Positions 23,897 through 32,268 of a DNA stretch of 64,000 bases are shown here, piece after piece. The notes under the pieces are model-generated. The model was not told the DNA's origin, made no database searches, and worked only from the letters and a program-made list of their open reading frames with translations. Both the position numbers and the translations under genes were made by a program. The stretch covers positions 1 through 64,000 of the forward strand of contig NZ_JAAEDH010000020.1 in NCBI RefSeq assembly GCF_018128965.1, written 5' to 3'. Origin of the DNA: Plastoroseomonas arctica (lineage in GTDB: Bacteria; Pseudomonadota; Alphaproteobacteria; Acetobacterales; Acetobacteraceae). Position 1 is the first letter of the stretch, and the number at the start of each line of letters is the position of its first letter.

Positions 23897-24286
23897 ATGG
23901 GTATGCCGGCCGCACGTCTGACCGATCTCGTCCTGCAGGATGCGCCGCATTGCCACGCGCCGATCCACCCGCCCGCACCGACGCCGACGCCCGTCCCACA
24001 CCCGGCCATGCCGCTGGCCATCGTCGCCCCCGGCGCGCCCACGGTGCTGATCGGCAGCATGCCCGCCGCACGCTCCACCGACATGACCGTGCCGTGCATG
24101 CTCATCCCCTGCGTCCCCGCGGGTCCGGGGATCATCGTCAAGGGCTCCGCCACGGTCCTGATCCTGAACCTTCCCGCCGCGCGAGCGAACGACCTGACGG
24201 CGCATGCCTCCTGCGTCGCGCCGATCCCTTCGCCGACCGGCAAGATCCTGCCGCCCTGCTGCCCAACCGTGCTGATCGGCGGCTGA
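23897..24286 (+). CDS. PAAR-motif protein (secretion spike tip type)
   Basis: A 129-residue protein with a repeated pattern of P-A-A-R-x-T/N-D and G-S/G-x-x-V-L-I steps, typical of PAAR proteins that cap the VgrG/spike of type VI secretion systems or related contractile injection systems. Blocks are M-P-A-A-R-L-T-D at the start, M-P-A-A-R-S-T-D in the middle and L-P-A-A-R-A-N-D later, with conserved His/Cys residues that could hold the apical metal (H-C-H near 19-21, C-C near the end). AGGAGAG precedes the ATG. No VgrG, Hcp or sheath gene is in the window. Confidence 0.85.
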   Translation: MGMPAARLTDLVLQDAPHCHAPIHPPAPTPTPVPHPAMPLAIVAPGAPTVLIGSMPAARSTDMTVPCMLIPCVPAGPGIIVKGSATVLILNLPAARANDLTAHASCVAPIPSPTGKILPPCCPTVLIGG

Positions 24287-25688: not shown

Positions 25689-26219
25689 CTAGGCCGCGAG
25701 CGCCATCTCGCCATCCAGCACCGCGGCGGTCGCATGCACGACCGAGGCGATGCGCACCGCAGCCTGCACCTGCTCCTTCCCGAGGCCGCCATGCAGGACG
25801 ACCTTCTCGTGGCTCTCCATGCACATGCCGCAGCCATTGATCGCCGAGACCGCCAGCGACCAGAGCTCGAAATCCACCTTTTCGACACCCGGCTTGGCCA
25901 TGACGTTCATGCGCAGCCGCGCCGGCATCTGCGCGTAGTCGCCGCCGACCAGGTGGGTGAAGCGGTAATAGACGTTGTTCATGCCCATGATCGCCGCCGC
26001 CGACTTCGCCGCGACCAGCGCCTCGGCCGAGAGCTTCGGGGCGAACTCCGCCAGGATCGCCTGGATCACCGCCGCGTTGCGCGAGGCGAGGGCGGAGGCC
26101 ACGAAGGTGCCGGCCAGCTGCTGCTGGCTCAGCACCGGCTCGGCGGCGAGGCTGCCGAGGTTGAGCTTCAGGTCCTTGGCATAGTCGGGCAGGGAATTCC
26201 GCAGGGCTTCAAGCGACAT
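25689..26219 (-). CDS. ahpD: Alkyl hydroperoxide reductase AhpD
   Basis: A 176-residue carboxymuconolactone-decarboxylase-fold protein. The catalytic C-x-x-C plus His is in [11 protein letters not shown] (about 131-141). AhpD reduces AhpC in organisms that lack AhpF, using lipoyl-dependent reductants in the characterised mycobacterial system (a possible link to the E2/E3 proteins at the start of this window). It lies 62 bases downstream of ahpC on the same strand, forming a two-gene operon. Confidence 0.93.
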
Positions 26220-26281
26220 GGCCGATATCCTTCACGCGATCCGAAGAAAGGGCAGGGGGCATCGCCCCCCCGCCGGTTTGC

Positions 26282-26866
26282 TCACGCCGCCGCGGAGAAC
26301 AGCTCCTGCGGCTTCAGCGCAGCCTGGCCCTTTTCCCAGTTGCAGGGGCAGAGCTCATCCGTCTGCAAGGCGTCGAGTACGCGCAGCACTTCGGCCGGGT
26401 TGCGCCCGACGTTCAGGCCGTTGACCGAAGCCCATTGGATGGTGCCGTGCGGGTCGACGATGAAGGTCGCGCGCAGCGGCACGCCCGCGTCCTTGTCGAG
26501 GATGCCCAGAGCGGAAGACAGCTCGCGCTTGATGTCGGCGAGCATCGGGATCGGCAGGTCGCGAATGTCGTCATTGTGCAGGCGCCAGTTCAGATGGACG
26601 AACTCGCTATCCGTGCTGACGCCGTAGACCACCGCGTCGCGATCGGCGAACTCGCCGGCGAGCTTGCCGAAAGCCGCGATCTCGGTCGGGCAGACGAAGG
26701 TGAAATCCTTCGGCCAGAAGAACACGATCTTCCACTGGCCCGCATCGGAGGCCGAGGTCACGTCGGTGAAGGACACGCCCGGACCACCGAGCCCCTCGGG
26801 GCCGCCCTTGACCGCGGTGAGCGCGAACTGGGGGAACTTGTCGCCAACGGTGAGCATCGGAATCAT
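26282..26866 (-). CDS. ahpC: Peroxiredoxin AhpC
   Basis: Typical 2-Cys peroxiredoxin of 194 residues, which reduces hydrogen peroxide and organic peroxides. The peroxidatic cysteine is Cys59 in D-F-T-F-V-C-P-T-E-I, and the resolving cysteine is at 173 or 175 in D-E-L-C-P-C-N-W. It is close to the mycobacterial AhpC type, in keeping with an ahpD partner downstream. AAAGGA lies before the ATG. It is divergent from oxyR, which should activate it. Confidence 0.96.
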   Translation of the reverse strand: MIPMLTVGDKFPQFALTAVKGGPEGLGGPGVSFTDVTSASDAGQWKIVFFWPKDFTFVCPTEIAAFGKLAGEFADRDAVVYGVSTDSEFVHLNWRLHNDDIRDLPIPMLADIKRELSSALGILDKDAGVPLRATFIVDPHGTIQWASVNGLNVGRNPAEVLRVLDALQTDELCPCNWEKGQAALKPQELFSAAA

Positions 26867-26922
26867 CCTTTGGTTGTTTGCCTACAAGTGACATAGTGCG
26901 GTGCAGCAATGCCGGCCAATGA

Positions 26923-26942
26923 ATAGTTTTCGGGAAAACGAT
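26923..26942. promoter_or_regulatory. Candidate OxyR operator between ahpC and oxyR
   Basis: ATAGTTTTCGGGAAAACGAT is almost perfectly symmetric (GTTTTC 26926-26931 mirrored by GAAAAC 26934-26939) and keeps the ATAG half-site beginning known from OxyR sites. It lies 11 bases before the oxyR ATG and 57 bases from ahpC, where an autoregulated oxyR and activated ahpC would both need it. Confidence 0.5.
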
Positions 26943-26953
26943 CGCTGGAATCG

Positions 26954-27883
26954 ATGAAGACCCTGGCCTCCGGGCCGCTCCCGAGCCCGCAGCAACTGCG
27001 CTACCTCGTCACCCTGGGTGAGTTCGGCCATTTCGGGCGCGCCGCCGAGGCCTGCGCGGTGACGCAGTCCACGCTGTCCGCCGGCATCATCGCGCTCGAG
27101 CGCCAGCTCGATGCGCCGCTGCTGGAGCGCCGTGGCGCCAAGCGCCCGATCTTCACGCCGCTCGGCCTCGACATCCTGCGCGAGGCGCGGCACGCGCTGG
27201 CCGCGCTCGCCTCGGTGACCGAGGCGGCGGCCGCCGCGCGCGCCCCACTCAGCGGCCCGCTGCGACTCGGCGTCATTCCGACCATCGGGCCGTTCCTGCT
27301 GCCGCGGCTGATGCCGGCGCTGCGCGAGAATTTCCCGCGCCTCAAGCTCTGGCTGCGCGAGGACCTGACCGACCGGCTGCTCGACTCGCTCGCGGCCGGC
27401 AAGCTCGACCTGCTGCTGCTCGCCTTGCCTGTCGGAACGGCCGCCGATATCGACACGCTCGCGATCGCCGAGGATCCCTTCCTCGCGGCACTGCCCCTGA
27501 ACCACCCGCTCGCTTCCCTGCCACGCATCCCGAGCACGGCGCTGGGTGGCGAATCGCTGCTGCTGCTTGAGGATGGGCATTGCCTGCGCGACCATGCGCT
27601 GTCCGCCTGCGGGCTGCCGGGCGCCTCGGCGGGGGAGGGGTTCTCCGCCACTTCCCTGCACACGCTGGTGCAGATGGTGGCGGGCAATCTCGGCATGACG
27701 CTGCTGCCCAGGCTCGCGGTCGATGGCGGCGTGCTGAGTGGCGCCGATGTCTGCCTCCGCCCCATCGATGGCGATCGGCCGAGCCGGACCATCGGCCTTG
27801 CCTGGCGCGGGCGCAGCGTGCGCGCCGGGGAGTTCAAGGGCCTGGCGCCGGTCATCGCCGCGGCGCTGCGACCGGCGCCGTGA
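26954..27883 (+). CDS. oxyR: Hydrogen peroxide-sensing regulator OxyR
   Basis: A 309-residue LysR-family regulator. The N-terminal helix-turn-helix is near 25-45. The redox pair is Cys210 and Cys219 in D-G-H-C-L-R-D-H-A-L-S-A-C, the same nine-residue spacing as Cys199/Cys208 of Escherichia coli OxyR. Oxidation to a disulfide is expected to switch it on. Divergent from ahpC-ahpD, its usual target. The first 10 residues before the helix-turn-helix are a little longer than in E. coli. Confidence 0.95.
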   Translation: MKTLASGPLPSPQQLRYLVTLGEFGHFGRAAEACAVTQSTLSAGIIALERQLDAPLLERRGAKRPIFTPLGLDILREARHALAALASVTEAAAAARAPLSGPLRLGVIPTIGPFLLPRLMPALRENFPRLKLWLREDLTDRLLDSLAAGKLDLLLLALPVGTAADIDTLAIAEDPFLAALPLNHPLASLPRIPSTALGGESLLLLEDGHCLRDHALSACGLPGASAGEGFSATSLHTLVQMVAGNLGMTLLPRLAVDGGVLSGADVCLRPIDGDRPSRTIGLAWRGRSVRAGEFKGLAPVIAAALRPAP

Positions 27884-28306: not shown

Positions 28307-28861
28307 ATGAATGACGATTTGCCCAGCCAGGCTGGCACCGCCGATCTGGACCTCAAGGCGCACATCCGTGGAATTGCGGATTTTCCGAAGCCGGGCATCC
28401 TGTTCTACGACATCTCGACGCTGCTCGCGCATGCCGCGGCCTGGCGCGCGGCGGTGTCCCGCCTCGCGGCGCTGATCCGCCCCTACGAACCCGAGCTCCT
28501 GGCCGGCATCGAGAGCCGTGGCTTCCTCGTCGCCGCCCCGCTGGCGCTTGAGCTCGGGCTCGGCTTCGTCATGCTGCGCAAGCCGCGCAAGCTGCCCGGC
28601 GAGACCATCGGGCTCGACTACGCGCTCGAATACGGCTCCGACCGCATCGAGATGCAGGCCGATGCGGTCGCGGCGGGCAAGCGCGTCGTGCTGCTCGACG
28701 ATCTGCTGGCCACCGGCGGCACCATGGCGGCTGGCGTGTCGCTGCTGCGCCAGGCGGGTGCGGTGGTGCCGGCGACCGCCGCGCTGATCGAGCTCAGCTT
28801 CCTCGGCGGCCGCCAGCGCCTCGACACGCCGTTCGAATCGCTCGTCGCCTACGAAAGCTGA
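28307..28861 (+). CDS. apt: Adenine phosphoribosyltransferase
   Basis: A 184-residue purine salvage enzyme that makes AMP from adenine and PRPP. The family blocks are [36 protein letters not shown] and the PRPP-binding [14 protein letters not shown]. The ATG at 28307 fits the normal N-terminus. It ends 4 bases before the LOV kinase gene, so the two share an mRNA. Confidence 0.96.
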
Positions 28862-28865
28862 ACCG

Positions 28866-30860
28866 GTGCGCGTCGTCACCCCGCGGCCGGACCCCCAGGA
28901 CCTCGCCGCCGAAGCCATTGCCCAGGCCGAGAACGCGACGCTGGCCGCGGCGGTCGCCGCCGCGCCCACCGGGGTCGTGCTCGCCGATCCCCGCCAGCCG
29001 GACTGCCCGATCACCTTCGCAAACCCTGCCTTCCTGGCGATGACCGGTTACGCTGCGGAGGAGGTTCTGGGGCGCAACTGCCGCTTCCTGCAAGGACCGG
29101 GCACCGAGCCGGGCAAGGCGCTTGAGATCCGTCGCGCCCTGTCCGAGCGTCGCGCGATCGAACTCACGATCACCAACCACCGCAAGGATGGCAAGCGCTT
29201 CGTGAACGAGTTGCTGATCTCGCCGCTATTCGACGCCGACGGATCACTGCGCTGCTTCCTGGGCATCCAGCACGACGTGACGCTGCGCGAGAAGGCACGC
29301 CGCGCCGCCGACCGCGCCCGCCGCGATGCGCTGCGCGCCCATGCCGAGAAGACCGGTTTCCTCGCCTTCATGAGCCATGAGGTGCGGGTGCCGCTGAACG
29401 GCGTGATGGGGACGCTGGCGCTGCTGCTCGAGACCGGGCTCAGCGCCGAGCAGCGCGCCTATGCCGAGACGGCGCGCCGCTGCGGGCTGACCCTGCTCGA
29501 CACCATGAACGACGTGCTCGACCTTTCGCGCATGGAAGCGGGCAAGTTCGTCATCGCGGCCAAGCCGTTCCGGCTCGCCGGCCCGGTGGCCGAGGTGATG
29601 GAGCTGCTCCGCCCGGCCGCCGACGAGAAGGGCCTGGCGCTGACCAGCTTCGTGGACCCCAAGCTGCCGGAGGGCGCAGTGGGCGATGCGCAGCGGCTGC
29701 GCCAGGTCCTGCTCAACCTCGCCGACAATGCGGTGAAGTTCACCGTGCTCGGCGGGGTTCACATCAGCCTGCACCTGACGCCGGAGGGGCGGATGCGCGG
29801 CGTGGTGAAGGATAGCGGCGTTGGCATCGCCCCCAAGGTGCAGGCGCGGCTGTTCCGCCGCTTCAGCCAGGGTGCCCAGGACATCACCCGGCGCTACGGC
29901 GGCACCGGCCTCGGGCTTTCCATCTGCAAGCGCCTGGTGGAGATGATGGGCGGGGCGATCTGGGTCGAGAGCGAGGCCGGGCACGGGGCCACCTTCACCT
30001 TCGACCTGCCGCTGCAGCCCATCCAGCGCGGCGCGCTGCCGCGCCTGCCCGCACCACCCGCAAGCCAGCCGCACCCGCTGCCACGGCGAAGGACGGCGAG
30101 CATGGCGGGGCGTATCCTGCTCGCCGAGGACGGCATCTCGAACCAGCTCGTCGCAGCGGCCATCCTGCGCAAGGCGGGATACGAGGTCGACCTTGTCCAT
30201 GATGGCGACGAGGCGGTCGCGGCGGCGCGCGGCGGCGAATACGACCTGATCCTGATGGATATCCGCATGCCCGGCCGCGACGGCATTGCGGCGACGACGG
30301 CGATCCGCGCCCTGCCGGGGATTGCCGGACGGGTGCCGATCGTGGCGCTGACCGCCTCCGCCCTGCCCGAGGATCGCGAGCGGTGCCTTTCCGCCGGGAT
30401 GGACCGGCATATCGCCAAGCCGATGGACCAGCACCAGTTGCTCGCGGTCGTCGCTGAACTCACCGCGCTGCGCCTGCCGCGGCCCGACGCGAGCGAGCCC
30501 GAGCCGCCGACGCGCCCGATCCTGCTCGACCGGCAGACGCTGGAGGAACTGCGCGCCGCCGTCGGCCCCGGCCAGTTGCCGCGCCTGTTGCGGGTCTTCG
30601 CCGAGGAGACGCGCGAACGCCTCGCCCGGCTTCTGTCGCTGCGCGACCTCGGCATGATCGAGGACGAGGCGCATGGGCTGAAATCCGCTGCCGGCACCTT
30701 TGGCGCGATCGCACTCCGGGATGCGGCACTCCAGATCGAGCTTGCCGCGCGGGCCGGAGATCGCGCCACGGTGGCGAGGCTGCTCGACGCGCTCACCGCG
30801 CTCACCGAAAACAGCCTTGCGGCCTATCCGCGGCCCCCGCCGCGGCCTGACGCGGCCTAG
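28866..30860 (+). CDS. LOV-domain hybrid histidine kinase with receiver and HPt domains
   Basis: A 664-residue signalling protein. Residues about 30-140 form a LOV-type PAS domain with G-R-N-C-R-F-L-Q: Cys72 is the flavin-adduct cysteine, and Asn104, Asn114 and Gln135 match the flavin-contacting residues. Then come the HisKA helix (His171 in M-S-H-E-V-R), an HATPase_c domain (N box L-A-D-N-A, G-T-G-L-G-L), a receiver domain with Asp465 (L-M-D-I-R-M-P) and Lys518, and a C-terminal HPt domain with His603 (E-A-H-G-L-K-S). So it contains a whole internal phosphorelay and is predicted to sense blue light. GTG start, 4 bases after apt. No output regulator is adjacent. Confidence 0.92.
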   Translation: MRVVTPRPDPQDLAAEAIAQAENATLAAAVAAAPTGVVLADPRQPDCPITFANPAFLAMTGYAAEEVLGRNCRFLQGPGTEPGKALEIRRALSERRAIELTITNHRKDGKRFVNELLISPLFDADGSLRCFLGIQHDVTLREKARRAADRARRDALRAHAEKTGFLAFMSHEVRVPLNGVMGTLALLLETGLSAEQRAYAETARRCGLTLLDTMNDVLDLSRMEAGKFVIAAKPFRLAGPVAEVMELLRPAADEKGLALTSFVDPKLPEGAVGDAQRLRQVLLNLADNAVKFTVLGGVHISLHLTPEGRMRGVVKDSGVGIAPKVQARLFRRFSQGAQDITRRYGGTGLGLSICKRLVEMMGGAIWVESEAGHGATFTFDLPLQPIQRGALPRLPAPPASQPHPLPRRRTASMAGRILLAEDGISNQLVAAAILRKAGYEVDLVHDGDEAVAAARGGEYDLILMDIRMPGRDGIAATTAIRALPGIAGRVPIVALTASALPEDRERCLSAGMDRHIAKPMDQHQLLAVVAELTALRLPRPDASEPEPPTRPILLDRQTLEELRAAVGPGQLPRLLRVFAEETRERLARLLSLRDLGMIEDEAHGLKSAAGTFGAIALRDAALQIELAARAGDRATVARLLDALTALTENSLAAYPRPPPRPDAA

Positions 30861-32119
30861 GCCGCGCAGCGCTCCGCCAAGGCGCGCTCGGCGAGCGAGG
30901 CGTGAATGCGGCTGGGCACCTGGCGATGCGCCTTGGCGCGCGGGATCGTCATTTCCTGGATGCTCGGGAGATGGCCGTAGAACGCCTCGTGCTCATTCCA
31001 GTTGTCGAAGGCGCAGCGGGCGACATTGTCGACGAAGGTCTCGGCCGGCGCGCCCTCCGCGAGGACCAGGCTGTGATCATGCAGCTCGATGTGGTGATAG
31101 GTGAAGGTCTCCGGCACGACGGGCTCGCGGGTGATGGAGGTGCCGTTCACCAGGGCGCCGGCTTGGATCAGGATGCCGTCCACGAGCATCGCGTGGTCGG
31201 GCGAGACGAGCAGGTCGCGCTCGGGCACCCCATCGGCGAGAGCGCCAGCGCGGATGCGGATGGGCAGGACGCGCAGGGGATCGCCGAAGCGGGTGGAGAC
31301 GGTCTGACGGCCCATCCAGCGCACCCGTGTGGCGATGCCGGCGCTGGTGAGCACCAGGTCACCGATGGCGAGCTGCTCGACCGCGCAATGGCCGGCCGGG
31401 GTGGTGATCAGGGTGCCGGGATAGAAGCAGATGATGTCGAACTGGCGTGGCGCGTCGCCGGCATCGGGCGCGGTGCCGTCGGTGTCCTGGCTGCCGGGGC
31501 CGCCCTGTGTGATCCAATAGCCCTGGCTGGCTTGCGTCGGCGTGTCCTGGGTGCCTGTGACCGGTGTGGTGCCGTTGATCGCGGCCAGCGCCTCGGCGCG
31601 GCTGGTCGCCTGGTCGTGGCTGTTGTTGAAATCGGTCGGGCCCACGTAGCGCGCGACATCGACGCTGCCGGTCAGGCCCACCGCGTTGACGCCGAGCGTC
31701 AATCCCGTGTTGTCGAGCGAGCCGGCCGACTGGTTCGAGAAATTGTTGTTGGAGATGGCCGAGAGGTAGGTCGTGGGCGTCGTGTTGCTGGTGCCTTGGA
31801 ATGCGTAGAGCGACTCGTCGGTGCCGCTGGGGTTGAAGCCGCTCGTCGCGGTGATTGAACCGGACGAGACGCTGCGCGTCCCGAGGATGACGTTGGAGAA
31901 GACAACCTCCTGGCCGGGCACGACGCCGCCGGCTGGCGCCGTCCAGGTGAGCGAGCCCTCGCTGGTGTTGAGCGATCCGAGGGCATTCGGCTCATTGTCG
32001 GTGAAATGGATGACGGTGCCGGCGGCGATCGCATCGACCGCGACGAAGGCGAAACCCTTGTTGCCGTCCGCGTCGAAGAAGGTGAACGCGATCGAGCCGG
32101 CGCCGAGGGATTGGGACAT
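30857..32119 (-). CDS. Hint-domain protein
   Basis: A 420-residue protein. The N-terminal 220 residues are beta-rich, low in Lys and Cys, with many Thr/Ser/Asn/Gly, like a secreted repeat-type domain (F-F-D-A-D-G-N-K-G opening). From about 228 a Hint_2-type domain starts with the nucleophile Cys231 (I-I-C-F-Y-P-G-T) and continues A-V-E-Q-L-A-I-G-D-L-V-L-T and R-V-R-W-M-G-R, then V-S-P-D-H-A-M-L-V. No signal peptide is visible, so export would need a type I or other leaderless route. Autoprocessing is possible. It overlaps the kinase gene by 4 bases. Confidence 0.85.
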   Translation of the reverse strand: MSQSLGAGSIAFTFFDADGNKGFAFVAVDAIAAGTVIHFTDNEPNALGSLNTSEGSLTWTAPAGGVVPGQEVVFSNVILGTRSVSSGSITATSGFNPSGTDESLYAFQGTSNTTPTTYLSAISNNNFSNQSAGSLDNTGLTLGVNAVGLTGSVDVARYVGPTDFNNSHDQATSRAEALAAINGTTPVTGTQDTPTQASQGYWITQGGPGSQDTDGTAPDAGDAPRQFDIICFYPGTLITTPAGHCAVEQLAIGDLVLTSAGIATRVRWMGRQTVSTRFGDPLRVLPIRIRAGALADGVPERDLLVSPDHAMLVDGILIQAGALVNGTSITREPVVPETFTYHHIELHDHSLVLAEGAPAETFVDNVARCAFDNWNEHEAFYGHLPSIQEMTIPRAKAHRQVPSRIHASLAERALAERCAA

Positions 32120-32268
32120 GGTCGCGACACTCCGGACAGGACGCCCCACAGCCCATCCGCCGCGGGCGGATCGCCGCGACCGAGGATGCCGTAAAGCTCT
32201 ATGCCCGCTTGTGTCGTCAAAGACGCGGCCGCGAGAGACCGCGATAACATGGTGAAACGATTAAGCTT

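Follow-up and report, generated by a model that had tools for sequence, protein, structure and literature searches.

A predicted LOV hybrid histidine kinase linked to apt and associated with phototrophy in the Acetobacteraceae

Within the 64,000-nucleotide stretch of Plastoroseomonas arctica DNA analysed here (the window; contig NZ_JAAEDH010000020.1) is a gene for a hybrid histidine kinase that we think probably acts as a soluble blue-light phosphorelay serving the light responses of phototrophic Acetobacteraceae. Its conserved linkage to apt, the gene for adenine phosphoribosyltransferase, and its association with phototrophy are the main additions reported here.

Results and Discussion

Features of the kinase gene

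The initial annotation described an open reading frame with LOV, HisKA, ATPase, receiver and HPt domains in one chain, and Pfam profiles recover all five above their cut-offs: PAS_9 at residues 36-139 (E 7e-21), HisKA at 162-226 (E 1e-16), HATPase_c at 273-384 (E 1e-30), Response_reg at 417-529 (E 8e-24), and Hpt at 574-649 (E 9e-10). The single polypeptide carries the His, Asp and His residues of an internal relay (Table 1). No gaps are needed to align the PAS domain with solved LOV domains, the best being 9vf7 (E 3e-33), followed by 3t50 (E 7e-31), which is the structure of a blue-light-activated histidine kinase. This alignment bears out the motif and flavin contacts that had been read from the sequence: the adduct cysteine, Cys72, lies within G-R-N-C-R-F-L-Q, an instance of the GxNCRFLQ pattern, and the Asn and Gln residues expected to contact the flavin are present (N71/N104/N114 and Q76/Q135), together with R73/R89. 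A search of the host genome for a second LOV domain found none at E 1e-4.

Table 1. Coordinates in the window of apt, the kinase gene and its predicted parts
Feature	Coordinates	Strand	Remarks
apt, adenine phosphoribosyltransferase	28346..28861	+	conserved 171 aa plus stop; true start further upstream, uncertain
LOV-HisKA-HATPase-REC-HPt hybrid histidine kinase	28866..30860	+	664 aa, GTG start
Putative LOV photosensor, aa 34-140	28965..29285	+	gap-free alignment to solved LOV domains
Cys72 codon, predicted adduct residue	29079-29081	+	in 48/49 orthologues
Gln135 codon	29268-29270	+	in 49/49 orthologues
Putative signalling-helix linker, LOV to phosphoacceptor His171	29286..29375	+	Gln135-His171 spacing
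HisKA (His171) and HATPase_c kinase core, aa 161-384	29346..30017	+	Pfam; invariant residues
Receiver domain, Asp465, aa 416-530	30111..30455	+	Pfam Response_reg
HPt domain, His603, aa 574-649	30585..30812	+	Pfam Hpt

The GTG is a plausible start for the kinase. The reading frame stays open for about 26 further codons upstream, none of which is a start codon, and in many relatives a candidate start lies about 38 bases inside apt.

Conservation among family orthologues

Searching 397 Acetobacteraceae genomes with the LOV domain as query gave 51 strong matches, and 49 of the 397, the host included, carry an orthologue of the kinase. With this many orthologues and near-invariant key residues, the reading frame is a genuine gene and not a chance one. 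Asn71, Arg73, Gln76, Asn104, Asn114 and Gln135 of the LOV domain and His171, Asn288 and Asp316 of the kinase core are invariant in all 49. Cys72 is absent from just one; Asp465 is present in all 47 readable orthologues and His603 in 45 of 47, both exceptions coming from genomes without detected pufLM. The prediction of a blue-light sensor is thus backed by the persistence of Cys72 as well as by the sequence itself, and that of a complete internal phosphorelay by the conservation of His171, Asp465 and His603, so that light sensing and an internal relay are, as far as sequence can tell, very likely. Two short LOV proteins (G185:C11:9950-10312 and G407:C205:9483-9836, from frames of 223 and 216 aa), with 57-58% identity to the LOV domain of the kinase, were set aside as non-orthologous.

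The host copy lies on a long branch and has evolved fast relative to Apt (ratio 2.67), and it departs from near-invariant positions at nine sites. These features, and the fact that LOV flavins can be redox-active, would fit a copy that is decaying in the host, or a PAS/LOV kinase whose signal is redox or some other ligand and not light, but the nine changes are mostly conservative, all catalytic and other key residues are spared, and Cys72 is kept almost throughout the orthologues; we find either idea hard to credit. The divergence also accounts for a contig search with the host's full protein that returned distant kinases only and missed the family orthologues, because its exact peptide seeds were taken from this divergent copy. 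A full-length search of relatives at E 1e-100 recovered the host alone; this was an artefact of sampling and threshold, since the relatives were mostly non-carriers and scoring was limited to 20 kinase candidates in each genome.

Linkage to apt

The upstream gene is identified as apt by NCBIfam NF002636 (206.6 bits against a cut-off of 125), and four bases separate its stop codon from the kinase GTG. In all 48 carriers with readable upstream DNA, the gene immediately before the kinase, read from the same strand, is apt; the 49th copy is cut off by a contig end. The 48 carriers belong to several genera, their Apt is a 68-84% identical copy, and the gap from the apt stop to the start of the LOV match varies from 37 to 178 nt; the genes downstream of the kinase differ from lineage to lineage. 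The pairing had been described as one with no evident logic, and in biochemical terms we likewise found none, but that description understates a pair kept in 48 of 48 readable carriers.

Such constancy could mean that the light relay and the supply of adenine or ATP/PRPP belong to one process, for example one in which purine flux is matched to light energy. However, many genomes, non-carriers included, also retain the DUF2842 gene upstream of apt, showing that retention of neighbours around apt is common; the persistence of the apt-kinase pair is therefore evidence of operon-like linkage but not by itself of shared function. Furthermore, apt is present in 189 of 200 family genomes and the kinase in 18 of the same 200, and we know of no biochemistry shared by apt and LOV kinases. 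A functional meaning of apt beside the kinase is thus unlikely, a common process of purine supply and light relay being highly improbable. The more specific proposal that the pair forms one phototroph unit, a phototrophy-dedicated relay with purine/PRPP supply coupled to light-driven energy metabolism, is improbable too. By default, the part of apt in the pair is housekeeping co-transcription.

Association with phototrophy

Gene content marks the host as a phototroph: pufL and pufM, both Photo_RC genes, lie in its genome within a stretch of translations that by inspection, with no profile search, resemble pufBALMC and bchXYZ. Across the family pufLM is present in 43 of the 49 kinase carriers compared with 81 of 348 non-carriers (Fisher odds ratio 23.6, p 1.5e-18, a p value that is too optimistic because genomes are treated as independent). 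The 81 phototrophic genomes without the kinase show that it is dispensable for phototrophy. In the host genus, G001 and G002 have neither pufLM nor the kinase; their locus can be matched to that of the host through the DNA of apt and of a glcF-like gene, between which no remnant of the kinase was found. Further sampling of genus g96 added no genomes. A phylogenomic study has argued for a photosynthetic ancestor of the Acetobacteraceae with many subsequent losses (PMC10715153). In a 200-genome sample counted by hand, whatever the residue at the cysteine position, other LOV-like matches seem more frequent among non-carriers that have pufLM (about 25 of 50) than among the remainder (about 25 of 132).

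The six carriers without detected pufLM (G075, G097, G248, G271, G301, and G349) include all of the copies that have lost key residues. G075 has Gly in place of Cys72, and G097 and G248, which are sister tips in the tree, have Arg and Ser, respectively, in place of His603; G248 carries two further substitutions, Lys291 to Ser and Asp422 to Glu. These three tips represent two events, compared with none among the 43 carriers with pufLM, which retain Cys72, His171, Asp465 and His603 wherever they are readable. The chance that all three decayed copies fall among six of 49 tips is 0.001. G075 is 82% complete with 7% contamination and G349 is 69% complete, and their lack of pufLM may be apparent only; leaving out both, two of two decayed copies fall among four of 47 carriers (chance 0.006). 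Counted as events, the chance that both fall on pufless branches, which make up approximately 18-20% of tree length, is approximately 0.03-0.04. The kinase/Apt divergence ratios of G097 and G248 are 1.53 and 1.91, against 1.04-1.20 in puf-bearing congeners. This pattern of decay is suggestive of a tie between the kinase and phototrophy.

The same data can be read as those of a LOV phosphorelay that is functional but governs light or stress behaviour in general (stress response, motility or attachment), its link to phototrophy arising only through sunlit habitats and ancestry. Among alphaproteobacterial LOV kinases, those that have been characterised act in the general stress response or in virulence (Brucella LOV-HK, PMC4438053; PMC12148442). 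In the host, a kinase neighbours a PhyR-like regulator, and the odds ratio above ignores relatedness. Moreover, the kinases of G271 (99% complete) and G301 (97%) have all key residues intact despite the lack of pufLM, and their divergence is not raised when set against that of Apt. Against this, the kinase is of the HisKA type whereas stress-response kinases are of the HWE/HisKA2 type, and residue loss is confined to carriers without detected pufLM. We consider a general role possible but rather doubtful, and a role of the kinase in the light response of phototrophs moderately likely.

A model for signalling

The domains, key residues, heptad-constrained linker, operon-like layout and co-distribution are supported by the sequence comparisons; for flavin binding, the light response, the order of the relay and its target we infer the following. 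The kinase would be a soluble receptor made from the apt transcript, in which blue light forms an adduct between flavin and Cys72 of the LOV domain. The resulting change would pass through the linker helix to the HisKA/HATPase core and alter net phosphorylation of His171, from which phosphate would move to Asp465 of the receiver, on to His603 of the HPt domain and finally to a separate, unlinked response regulator. The output would serve light-dependent processes in those Acetobacteraceae that are aerobic anoxygenic phototrophs, perhaps pigment or reaction-centre expression, or protection against photo-oxidation. The gene would be retained in phototrophic lineages and could decay once phototrophy is lost.

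Gln135 and His171 lie 36 residues apart in 46 carriers and 43 apart in the other three (G310, G367, and G416), so that the sole change in linker length is an insertion of exactly seven residues, or one heptad. The engineered LOV-FixL kinase YF1 (4gcz) has the same succession of LOV domain, helical linker and kinase, and aligns over the LOV domain and the start of the kinase, but it is an artificial fusion and its linker is two residues longer by count. Because the spacing is two residues off the YF1 register, taking His161 to be the YF1 phosphoacceptor, the light polarity of YF1 cannot be transferred to the kinase, and prediction of polarity from linker length was dropped. The corresponding LOV glutamine of YF1 is Gln123, and a coiled-coil signalling helix has been described for LOV kinases (PMC6798134). 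A length that is constant except for one heptad fits such a helix.

Comparison with known systems

The kinase falls below the cut-offs of all of the best 25 NCBIfam families listed, which include TorS, ArcB, BarA, blue-light kinase and YtvA. As in the alphaproteobacterial blue-light kinases (Brucella LOV-HK, Erythrobacter EL346 and Caulobacter LovK), an N-terminal LOV domain would drive a soluble histidine kinase, and the photochemical residues are the same. However, the Brucella and Erythrobacter proteins reportedly have cores of the HWE/HisKA2 type and lack an internal receiver-HPt relay, and the kinase, with its HisKA core, is not a member of the blue-light HWE-type family NF052306 (139 bits against a cut-off of 450). 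With ArcB, BarA and TorS (NF008302, NF008318, TIGR02956) it shares the HisKA-HATPase-REC-HPt order and relay logic, but these are membrane sensors of other signals, and it scores far under their cut-offs (359.6 against 676.5 for TorS) and belongs to none of them. By analogy, the kinase may work like a LOV sensor placed on an ArcB/TorS-type relay.

This architecture is itself already known, since Azospirillum soli (L005) has a single frame that combines a LOV motif with HATPase, REC and HPt, as does a Rubrobacter bin (L006), there with two receivers. Both differ from the kinase in being only 37-38% identical to it, in having a longer N-terminus and in lacking apt nearby.

A functional analogy is provided by LdaP of Dinoroseobacter shibae (Dshi_1135), a LOV protein that controls aerobic anoxygenic photosynthesis genes; in LdaP the phosphoacceptor His is replaced by Arg, and the protein does not autophosphorylate but binds the repressor PpsR directly (PMC10890935). 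It may be likened to the kinase in how it works only. The orthologous group described here is a candidate, amenable to testing, for a phosphorelay that places anoxygenic phototrophy under blue-light control, a route that would contrast with direct PpsR binding by LdaP or AppA, and the repeated absence of reaction-centre genes with decay of the kinase in some lineages offers natural loss-of-function comparisons. A literature search, with most subscription journals outside it, found no paper on an apt-linked group of LOV kinases and no study of LOV kinases in phototrophic Acetobacteraceae.

Candidate partner regulators and neighbouring genes

Output had been predicted to run through a response regulator, but none was found beside the gene. 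In those carriers whose apt region was read over 20 kb, no gene for a stand-alone response regulator turned up, nor did approximately 40 kb around pufM in ten carriers, or 60 kb in the host, contain a stand-alone REC gene; a single hybrid kinase lies near the photosynthesis cluster of G199. The host genome has 33 receiver-domain matches, and stand-alone regulators with no adjacent kinase in the stretches read include those at C4:51967-52305, C12:57101-57412, C16:99775, C17:3947-4261 and C2:45327-45581, as well as a CtrA-like regulator at C4:179072 and a PhoB-like one at C11:7498, both by inspection. These orphan regulators are leads only as partners of the kinase. The PhyR-like regulator of the host (L240, G000:C9:67500-76000), with sigma-like and receiver parts and a histidine kinase nearby by inspection, likely belongs to the general stress response.

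Other loci in the window were also noted. A Hint-domain (Hint_2) gene at 30857-32149 on the minus strand is convergent with the kinase gene and overlaps its 3' end by four bases; it is missing along with the kinase at the matching locus of the congener G001. At 25689-27883 a LysR regulator is divergent from an AhpC/TSA peroxiredoxin gene and a carboxymuconolactone-decarboxylase-family (AhpD-like) gene, a group that resembles an OxyR-type peroxide-defence module. Finally, the small protein encoded at 23897-24286 on the plus strand has repeated MPAAR-type motifs and is, by inspection only, PAAR-like.
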